This document shows, piece after piece, positions 57,411 to 59,748 of a stretch of 64,000 bases of DNA; the stretch's first letter is position 1; the number at the start of each line of letters is the position of its first letter. The DNA lies in the NCBI RefSeq assembly GCF_020520285.1, contig NZ_CP084742.1:4588001-4652000 (forward strand), read 5' to 3'. This stretch comes from Pseudomonas sp. L5B5 (lineage in GTDB: Bacteria > Pseudomonadota > Gammaproteobacteria > Pseudomonadales > Pseudomonadaceae). Under the pieces are notes generated by a model, which saw only the letters and a list, made by a program, of their open reading frames with translations, had not been told where the DNA came from and ran no database searches. A program made the translations under genes and the position numbers.

Positions 57411-57861
57411 CCACCGCGCAAGCAGCCTCACCGGGCTGTTGCTGCCCCTGGCCGACCGCACCTTGATCCTGCCCAACGTGGCCGTGGCCGAGCTGATCGA
57501 CTACCAGCAGGGCAGCTTCGACCTGGACTCGCCGCCCTGGTACCTGGGCCGGGTGCTGTGGCGTGACCGGCAGATTCCGCTGATCAGCTTCGAGTCGGCC
57601 TGCGGCAGCCCCACGGTTATCGGCGAGCGGGCGCGGATCGTCGTGCTCAATGCCCTGGGCGGGCGCGCGGAAGTGAAGTTCATCGCCTTGCTGGTGCAGG
57701 GCATTCCGCGTTCCTGCAAGCTCGACAGCCAGTTGAGCTACGTCGATGTACCCCTGGCTCCGCTGGAGAAAGCCGCGGTGCAGGTGGCCGAGCAGGTGGC
57801 CCGGGTGCCGGACTTGCTGGCCCTGGAAGAGTGGCTGGTGGCTGCCGGGCTGGCCCTCTAG
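57403..57861 (+). CDS. chpC: CheW-like protein ChpC
   Basis: 152 residues, a CheW-like domain (LLLPLADRTLILPNVAVAELIDYQQG, WYLGRVLWRDRQIPLISFESACG). Overlaps the chpA stop by 8 bases. In P. aeruginosa a CheB gene (chpB) separates chpA and chpC; here chpC follows directly. It may couple further receptors to ChpA. Last gene of the operon before a MITE-like element. Confidence 0.88.
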   Translation: MLDHRASSLTGLLLPLADRTLILPNVAVAELIDYQQGSFDLDSPPWYLGRVLWRDRQIPLISFESACGSPTVIGERARIVVLNALGGRAEVKFIALLVQGIPRSCKLDSQLSYVDVPLAPLEKAAVQVAEQVARVPDLLALEEWLVAAGLAL

Positions 57862-58020
57862 CAGACCGTTGAAAAACGTAGGTGAGGCAGTCAGCGCAAG
57901 GCAAAAAAACAGGCGAAAAAGCGCAGTTTACGAGTGGTAAATGAGCATTTTGACCGGGCTGGCGCACCAGCTTGTTTTTAACGCAGCGATGGCAACGCAG
58001 GTAGTTTTTCAACGGCCTGC
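57862..58020. mobile_element. MITE-like element with terminal inverted repeats
   Basis: About 159 bases between the convergent chpC and NADAR genes. The left end GCAGACCGTTGAAAAAC and the right end on the minus strand GCAGGCCGTTGAAAAAC match at 16 of 17 bases, and inner parts (AAAAAAACAGGC and AAAAACAAGC) are also partly inverted. It starts right after one stop codon and its last base lies within the other, so it fills the whole gap and may act as a bidirectional terminator. Confidence 0.7.
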
Positions 58021-58580
58021 TAGGCGCCGCGCAGGCGGTCGCGCACCTCCATCAGTGCATAACCCAGCAGGTTGAGCCCGCGCCACTTCGCCGGCTGAGC
58101 AGCCTTGGCGTCGTCGGCTGCCAGGCCGATGCCCCAGATCCGATCCACCGGGCTGGCTTCCACCAGCACCTGCTTGCCGGTCGACAGCAGATAGTCGCCC
58201 AGGGCCTGATGCTGGCTGAACTTGGCCAGATTGCCGCGCACCACGATGGCAAAGCGTGCCTCGGTCCAGCGAGCATCATCGAAGCCGCGCACCTCGCGGC
58301 CCAACTGCTTGACGTCGGCAGGCGCCACGGCCTGGATGATCCGCGCGTGGGTCTGCTGGTCGTCGAACAGCAAGGCCTTGCCAGCCATCATGTAGTGCTC
58401 GGCGGTAGGGTAGTGAATGCCATCGAGCTCGAAACCGGTAGCGAACCACTGGCTGAAACAGCTTGGCGAAATGCGCCCGTCACGGGGCGGCTGGTGGCCC
58501 CAGAACATCAGGTAATCGGGTTTCAGGCCTTGCTTGATCTGCTCCAGCAGCGCCTGGTTCGAGCGAATCGGTGTGTCCAT
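58020..58580 (-). CDS. NADAR-family protein (YbiA-like)
   Basis: 186 residues. ISPSCFSQWFATGFELDGIHYPTAEHYMMAGKALLFDD, RFAIVVRGNLAKFSQH and the C-terminal VDRIWGIGLAADD...WRGLNLLGYALMEVR are the NADAR signature. Members hydrolyse ADP-ribosylated nucleobases or early riboflavin intermediates, so NAD-linked repair or riboflavin damage control are both possible. The ATG at 58580 has a GAGAG ribosome site; an in-frame ATG 12 bases upstream lacks one. Confidence 0.9.
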   Translation of the reverse strand: MDTPIRSNQALLEQIKQGLKPDYLMFWGHQPPRDGRISPSCFSQWFATGFELDGIHYPTAEHYMMAGKALLFDDQQTHARIIQAVAPADVKQLGREVRGFDDARWTEARFAIVVRGNLAKFSQHQALGDYLLSTGKQVLVEASPVDRIWGIGLAADDAKAAQPAKWRGLNLLGYALMEVRDRLRGA

Positions 58581-58695
58581 GCTGACTCTCATCTTGGTCT
58601 ACCCAGGCCATTCATAGGCCGGTACGGCGGGCATTGTGTACCGGGAGCGGGGAGGGCGCTATTGGCAGGAAATTCTTCGGTATTGATCAGTCCCC

Positions 58696-58735
58696 AAAAG
58701 GGACCTATCGTTCCCTTTTTAGGACCTCTTGAGGT
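58696..58735 (+). promoter_or_regulatory. Paired inverted repeats before the wHTH-nucleotidyltransferase gene
   Basis: AAAAGGGA (58696-58703) and TCCCTTTT (58712-58719) are perfect inverted arms with an 8-base spacer. A second palindrome ACCTC-TT-GAGGT (58724-58735) covers the ribosome site (GAGGTG). Binding by the encoded winged-helix protein would allow autoregulation at the levels of transcription and initiation. Confidence 0.5.
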
Positions 58736-58739
58736 GAGT

Positions 58740-59369
58740 ATGTCGAATCGATCTTTGAGCCAGGCGCTATTTACCTCAACCCAGCAGAAAATCCTCGGGC
58801 TGCTCTTCGGCAAGCCTGACCAGAGCTTCTACGCCAATGAGATCGCTCGTTGGGCGCAGGTGGGCAAGGGCAGCCTGATGCGTGAACTGGAGCGTCTTCA
58901 TGGCGCGGGCATTTTGCTGCTGACCCGCCAGGGTAACCAGACTCACTACCAGGCCAACGATCAGTGTCCGATCTATCACGAACTACTGGGTATCGTGCAC
59001 AAGACATTCGGTATTGCCGATCCGTTGCGGCTGGCGCTGATGCCCTTCGCAAGTCAATTGGTATGGGCCTTTGTCTATGGTTCGGTGGCCCGTGACCAGG
59101 CTCACGCATCCAGTGACATTGATCTCATGTTGATCGGCCAGGACCTGCATTACAGTGAGGTCATGGAACGGCTGCTGCTTACGGAAGAACAGCTTGGCCG
59201 GCCGATCAACCCTACCCTGTACACCCCAGAGAACTGGATCGCCAGGCATGTGGCCGGGAACAGTTTTGTCCAGCGGGTCAGGCAACAGGACAAGATCACC
59301 TTGCTGGGGTGCGACCCCATGGAGTCCATGGATGGACGGACAGCACAACCTGGAGAACCTGCTACGTAG
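58740..59369 (+). CDS. Winged-helix/nucleotidyltransferase fusion protein (MNT-type antitoxin-like)
   Basis: 209 residues. The N-terminal ~85 residues are an ArsR-like winged helix (QKILGLLFGKPDQSFYANEIARWAQVGKGSLMRELERLHGAGILLLTRQGNQTHYQAN). The rest is a minimal nucleotidyltransferase with a complete GS-x10-DxD active site: YGSVARDQAHASSDIDLMLIG near residue 117. The partner HEPN gene overlaps its end by 38 bases. In HEPN/MNT toxin-antitoxin pairs the MNT protein AMPylates and silences the HEPN RNase; the added DNA-binding domain suggests a combined repressor and antitoxin. Confidence 0.83.
   Translation: MSNRSLSQALFTSTQQKILGLLFGKPDQSFYANEIARWAQVGKGSLMRELERLHGAGILLLTRQGNQTHYQANDQCPIYHELLGIVHKTFGIADPLRLALMPFASQLVWAFVYGSVARDQAHASSDIDLMLIGQDLHYSEVMERLLLTEEQLGRPINPTLYTPENWIARHVAGNSFVQRVRQQDKITLLGCDPMESMDGRTAQPGEPAT
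59306..59318 (+). promoter_or_regulatory. Small hairpin before the HEPN ribosome site
   Basis: GGGGT (59306-59310) and ACCCC (59314-59318) form a 5-base stem with a 3-base loop, two bases before the GGAG ribosome site of the HEPN gene. Translation of the upstream gene would melt it, which could couple the two products. Confidence 0.35.
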
Positions 59370-59748
59370 CAACGCCTTGAAGGCTGAACCCAGCGACACG
59401 CGTGAATGTGCAGGGTTACTGCGTTCTGCGGCGCAACGCTTGCAGGACGTGGGCACACCCGGCTTGTCCTTCTCCAGCCGCTTCGATTTGGCCTACAACG
59501 CGGCCCATGCTGCTGCGCTCTGTGCCTTGCGCCTGCAAGGCTATCGTTCCGAAAAACGCTATCTGGTATTTCAGTGCCTGGGACTCACCGCAGGCCTGGA
59601 CCGGGTGCGAGTGCGTCTGTTCGCGTTGTGTCACGAGCGGCGCAACCTGGCGGAATATGAAGGCTACATGGATGAAGATGAAGACCTGCTGGAGGCGTTG
59701 CGAGTCAGCACCCAGCATTTGCTGGAGCAGATCACGGACAGAATGTAG
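59332..59748 (+). CDS. HEPN-domain protein
   Basis: 138 residues, all-helical. LAYNAAHAAALCALRLQGYRSEKRYLVFQCL and RVRLFALCHERRNLAEYEGYMDEDEDLLE match HEPN proteins, with the R-N-x-x-x-Y segment on the fourth helix; the RNase-type Rx4-6H motif is only possibly present (R..LFALCH). The start is set by GGAG at 59321-59324, 7 bases before the ATG. It overlaps the wHTH-nucleotidyltransferase gene by 38 bases in another frame, so both must be made from one message. A toxin role is inferred from family and partner, not shown. Confidence 0.78.
   Translation: MDGQHNLENLLRSNALKAEPSDTRECAGLLRSAAQRLQDVGTPGLSFSSRFDLAYNAAHAAALCALRLQGYRSEKRYLVFQCLGLTAGLDRVRVRLFALCHERRNLAEYEGYMDEDEDLLEALRVSTQHLLEQITDRM

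Follow-up and report, generated by a model that had tools for sequence, protein, structure and literature searches.

Pseudomonas sp. L5B5 carries a two-gene module, composed of a nucleotidyltransferase (NTase) gene and a HEPN gene, in which the presumed promoter is overlapped by a conserved tandem operator. Judged by this conservation, the DNA-binding half of the NTase very probably represses its own operon through the tandem operator. The module was analysed within a stretch of 64,000 nucleotides (nt) of contig NZ_CP084742.1 (positions 4,588,001 to 4,652,000), referred to as the window. The NTase gene (58740..59369, + strand) encodes a protein of 209 amino acids (aa), which joins a winged helix to a GSX10DXD nucleotidyltransferase. 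The HEPN gene (59332..59748, + strand) lies downstream and starts within the end of the NTase gene, the two overlapping by 38 bases; it encodes a 138-aa protein with the motif R104-N-L-A-E-Y109-E-G111. An earlier note on this DNA had correctly read the anatomy from the raw sequence, including the domain make-up, the 38-base overlap and the difference from a free-standing MntA. The fusion, which it took for a new arrangement, is already catalogued. The module is a member of the PADLOC candidate PDC-M05A/B, as the window NTase matches model PDLC04368 (M05A; E 2.4e-84, residues 1-193) and the window HEPN protein matches PDLC04373 (M05B; E 2.4e-58, residues 1-136). While the architecture was thus known, the tandem operator, the absence of RX4HXY from the HEPN protein, the lopsided decay of the two genes and the patchy yet shared genomic site are new in this analysis.

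Papers are cited by PubMed Central (PMC) number. An archaeal survey (PMC12988326) presents M05 as the combination of a nucleotidyltransferase with a HEPN protein, its antiviral role awaiting confirmation. It attributes candidates such as M05 to a guilt-by-embedding approach and, across 7747 archaeal genomes, reports PDC-M05 as enriched in archaea. For Burkholderia cenocepacia K56-2, PMC12584637 lists PDC-M05A as being upregulated in the course of phage infection. Among the PubMed Central matches listed, neither a functional study of the pair nor a description of its operator was found, preprints elsewhere and most subscription journals being outside the search. Four papers were rejected as accounts of PDC-M05: PMC13092281, PMC12137116 and PMC6393860 treat other systems and PMC13284704 is unrelated.

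A conserved tandem operator at the presumed module promoter

The operator consists of two CCC-N5-GGG palindromes placed 21 base pairs (bp), or two helical turns, apart. In the window, operator 1 (GTCCCCAAAAGGGAC, 58690..58704) occupies the spacer between the presumed -35 (TTGATC, 58683..58688, + strand) and the presumed -10 (TATCGT, 58706..58711, + strand). Operator 2 (TTCCCTTTTTAGGAC, 58711..58725) starts on the last base of the -10 and differs by one base from the commonest family form. A likely ribosome-binding site of the NTase gene, GAGGTG, was read by eye at 58731..58736 (+ strand). The -10 is conserved between the palindromes, and in orthologues an aligned TTGA-type hexamer precedes it by 17 nt. 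A consensus promoter scan reported nothing in the window, the presumed -35 included, and the promoter assignment therefore rests on conservation.

Relatives of the NTase were collected from genome surveys and contigs at 115 loci, giving 110 different NTases; only identical sequences were merged, and survey and contig loci overlap in species. Of 109 upstream regions, 99 have at least 10 of the 12 CCC/GGG letters with the palindromes in the 21-bp register, as against 18 of 2200 letter-shuffled regions. The earlier note had rightly read palindromes over the promoter. Near-complete operators were found at 36/37 loci of the chpC-mdcA site (see below) and at 63/72 other loci; L021, L103 and L105 score through a pair farther upstream than the promoter pair. 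When the 3-bp arms had to be perfect and the core A/T-rich, a pair at exactly 21 bp was seen in 78/109 regions, and all other spacings from 11 to 60 bp fell short of four loci. The additional upstream pair, present at L021, L103, L105 and L010, may add repression strength.

At three loci with distant NTases (L028-L030, 36-42% identical) and at the plasmid-borne L043, the best 21-bp pair consists of GCC/GGC-like half-sites whose arms are imperfect (6 of 8 arm pairs; given without a chance estimate). GTTCA half-sites at 21 bp were seen at L097 by eye only; the 11-base test misses them. The NTase of L097 is the only one of the 110 to have Ala in place of Gly where the presumed recognition helix starts.

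Of 199 Pseudomonas genomes, 31 have the exact tandem pattern, 23 of these with and 8 without an NTase match; a backward control pattern occurs in none of the 199. Seven of the eight NTase-free operators lie clearly, on both flanks, at module sites of relatives and are not taken as evidence against the operator; at the eighth (L154), flank matches to module-bearing relatives are short and weak. The tandem palindromes are intact at all eight (L130, L134, L141, L145, L146, L149, L154 and L227) and are possibly relics, or reused as a terminator. At several of these loci a small gene, which we take to be of the DUF3077/DUF6124 kind, ends right before the palindrome. DUF6124 (PF19619) also turns up among the module neighbours. 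A single palindrome, searched in the window's own genome only, was found at four places, three of them with G/C-rich cores.

Altered motifs in both proteins

A winged-helix fold was predicted for the NTase protein (108 of the 110 sequences entered the pool; 53 rows were left once the set had been thinned and plasmid rows taken out). The REL and GNQ motifs of the winged helix are invariant in 110/110 NTases. In the window protein GSX10DXD comprises G114, S115, D126 and D128; GS and the first Asp are present in 110/110 NTases and the second Asp in 108/110. The third acidic position is Asn in 108/110 (N157 in the window) and Asp in the solved enzymes 2rff and 9xbd, the two whose printed alignments reach that strand. 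From these residues, nucleotide binding looks retained.

For the second protein, a HEPN fold was predicted, in agreement with the earlier note, whose reading is not refuted on this point. Here, 83 of 95 rows (no stop, more than 100 aa) were pooled; thinning and the exclusion of plasmid rows left 45, the window included. Five gapped rows of the 95-row alignment were omitted from the counts. R104, N105 and G111 are present in all 90 remaining rows and Y109 in 89. Counted from R104, the motif reads RX4YXG and not RX4HXY, which type VII HEPN toxins bear (PMC11586414): the His position is Tyr in 89 rows and Asp in one, and the position of the AMPylated Tyr is Gly in all 90. AMPylation of the HEPN protein is possible, although the positions of both the canonical acceptor Tyr and the catalytic His are replaced.

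These substitutions could point to a regulatory switch, with the NTase as a repressor that senses nucleotides and perhaps lacks catalysis, and the HEPN protein as its non-toxic co-regulator or anti-repressor. The complete absence of RX4HXY, the Asn at the third acidic position and the retention of the operator at most loci without HEPN are in favour of such a switch. On the other hand, in the 199 Pseudomonas genomes the exact tandem operator was found only beside the module or at the eight sites described above, so that nothing else is apparently controlled through it, and a switch controlling only itself requires an output. A regulatory switch of this kind is, on balance, unlikely. That the HEPN protein serves as substrate-binding subunit of an NTase modifying another protein or a small molecule, in the manner of two-domain drug nucleotidyltransferases, we consider quite improbable.

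Lopsided decay of the two genes

In the genus and class surveys, an intact NTase gene accompanied a broken or absent HEPN gene at 16 loci and the reverse was seen at one (two-sided p 0.0003). The NTase gene is the longer, and random errors should therefore strike it more often than the HEPN gene. The bias is as expected if an unrestrained HEPN protein is costly. Both genes are wrecked at several further loci (L221, L222, L225, L226). Three loci with distant NTases and no HEPN (L218, L219, L220) are excluded from the tally, and two places represented twice (L170/L224; L172/the second module of L210) were each counted once. The 80 contig loci were kept out because they had been found through the NTase. 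Partial survey matches to either protein without a fetched locus were left unclassified; the unfetched HEPN matches either span no more than half of the model or adjoin an intact NTase. Some of the broken HEPN genes come from metagenome assemblies, in which sequencing errors are possible.

Purifying selection was evident on both genes. The median ratio of non-synonymous to synonymous substitution rates (dN/dS) was 0.085 for the NTase (19 usable pairs) and 0.10 for HEPN (15 usable pairs), out of 20 pairs tried and with dS between 0.02 and 1.5 taken as usable. The HEPN set includes one pair with a broken HEPN gene (L024/L065, ratio 1.15).

The lopsided decay would also suit an ordinary type VII pair (HepT/MntA) to which a winged helix has been added and in which a HEPN ribonuclease (RNase) is silenced by tyrosine AMPylation. 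Gene order, the folds of both proteins and GSX10DXD agree with this. The missing His is not decisive either, since changes of R98 or H103 in a Legionella HEPN protein had negligible impact on RNase activity (PMC11586414); the absence of RX4HXY thus does not exclude such activity here. However, the His and acceptor-Tyr positions are both replaced in all 90 rows counted, and the window NTase scores 25.1 bits with the NCBIfam MntA model, under the cut-off of 60. An ordinary type VII pair is therefore decidedly doubtful.

A patchy module at a shared site

The NTase was matched in 31/199 and HEPN in 29/199 Pseudomonas genomes, remnants included, and in 45/274 and 38/274 genomes of the wider class survey. 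The best 80 of 515 relatives in the contig scan belong to Pseudomonas, other Beta- and Gammaproteobacteria and one Desulfuromonadales record. A HEPN match lies directly downstream on the same strand at 100/115 loci (95 of the 110 different NTases). At 22 of 30 Pseudomonas loci from the genus survey, chpC and/or mdcA adjoin the pair as in the window, a locus being assigned to this site when either was matched within the fetched stretch. The earlier note had pictured the pair as cargo between chp and mdc genes. The module is patchy and not universal in Pseudomonas, as the survey shows, but its concentration at one site indicates that it does not roam there as cargo. The 37 unique NTases found at this site require only 2 changes on the NTase tree, compared with a shuffled mean of 16.1, which argues for an inherited locus with losses rather than moving cargo; recent arrival as cargo at this site was rejected on the same count. 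Five Pseudomonas rows lacking chpC and mdcA nest within the group.

Over larger distances, transfer of the module is likely from the sequence relationships: eight NTases from betaproteobacterial records nest among those of Pseudomonas. NTase matches were absent from 50,697 phage records, and two HEPN peptide patterns matched 64 viral-contig stretches with no relative among them. Seventeen plasmid records matched the NTase. In the five that were opened, the profile finds an adjoining HEPN gene in 5/5 and the tandem operator is present in four, L043 falling below the CCC/GGG score. A lone NTase (L118, 2607-3282) was seen on a Methylococcales contig, with neither the operator score nor a HEPN match. 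It is followed by frames that, from their translation, resemble a helicase and a DUF499-type ATPase.

Neighbouring genes

At 68 loci outside the chpC-mdcA site, 125 nearest neighbours matched 227 PADLOC models, a scan that had no control set. Among the 25 models listed, RtcR-type regulators accounted for five neighbours, PDC-S04 and SoFic for three each and a type I methyltransferase for two; no model was matched by more than five of the 125. In the window, a divergent NADAR-domain gene (58020-58592, - strand; PF08719, E 3.1e-54) adjoins the module. The window alone gave a match to this gene among the 115 loci, for which the stretches mostly cover 1.5 to 3 kb on each side. NADAR-domain proteins are named among the classes examined in the DefensePredictor paper (PMC13092281). 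An inverted repeat at 57858-58023, between the CheW-like and NADAR genes, has 20-nt arms that are 95% complementary and 126 nt apart; its size suggests a miniature mobile element.

Proposed mode of action

From these observations, we put at about even the chance that PDC-M05 is an autorepressed module in which an antitoxin-like NTase restrains a HEPN effector. The NTase would bind the two palindromes straddling its own -10, probably with two dimers seated on the same face of the helix, and so bound would repress its own operon, as the conservation of the site strongly supports. The HEPN protein would be the component that is costly when unrestrained; from the decay pattern and the kinship with HEPN-MNT pairs, it is about as probable as not a harmful effector. 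Repression would be one means of restraint; a second, suggested by the analogy to HEPN-MNT pairs, may be complex formation with or without nucleotidylation. Stress or phage infection could lift the repression and free the HEPN protein, which might then, as an effector, arrest growth or act on RNA, using an active site different from RX4H. The listed upregulation of PDC-M05A in phage-infected B. cenocepacia K56-2, transcription data from another species, speaks for a link to phage.

Several points weigh against this proposal. RNase activity of the HEPN protein is not assured because the RX4HXY residues are absent, nor is catalysis by the NTase, owing to the Asn at its third acidic position. A HEPN gene that is merely more dispensable could yield the same lopsided decay, and the reverse case, L217, has an intact HEPN gene beside a broken NTase gene. 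The scan of 125 neighbours at 68 loci, lacking a control set, gave no clear defence-island sign. The window genome itself has no match to the exact tandem pattern, because operator 2 departs from the commonest form at one base.

A bolder version appears improbable to us: that PDC-M05 is an autonomous phage-responsive switch, in which an NTase repressor with an altered third metal-binding acid would read or make a nucleotide signal during infection, leave the double operator and free a non-RX4H HEPN effector. The earlier note had left toxin, regulator and phage-defence roles open, rightly in our judgement. Its interpretation is thus supported in part, as to the anatomy, the HEPN fold, the promoter palindromes and the open roles, and not as to the novelty of the fusion or the cargo picture.

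Comparison with known systems

The tandem operator provides a ready DNA probe and reporter for measuring repression, how phage relieves it and what HEPN contributes, and the missing RX4HXY allows the type VII model to be tested at its limits. With PDC-M05, a candidate defence system of PADLOC-DB, the window pair shares the gene order and near full-length matches of both proteins. The window copy differs in being flanked by chp, NADAR and mdc genes, with no defence system visible around it, and in occupying a site common to related pseudomonads. Type VII HEPN-MNT (HepT/MntA) pairs have the same folds, GSX10DXD and a two-gene operon with the MNT gene first. In contrast, the PDC-M05 pair has a winged helix fused to the NTase and a conserved self-operator, RX4YXG in place of RX4HXY, and Asn at the third acidic position of the NTase. 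Unlike ArsR/MarR-type winged-helix repressors, the window protein adds a nucleotidyltransferase domain, and its predicted operator consists of two palindromes in tandem, 21 bp apart. In 2009 Makarova and colleagues considered that MNT-HEPN pairs might have a DNA-binding partner encoded in trans (PMC2701414), whereas here the winged helix is fused to the NTase itself.
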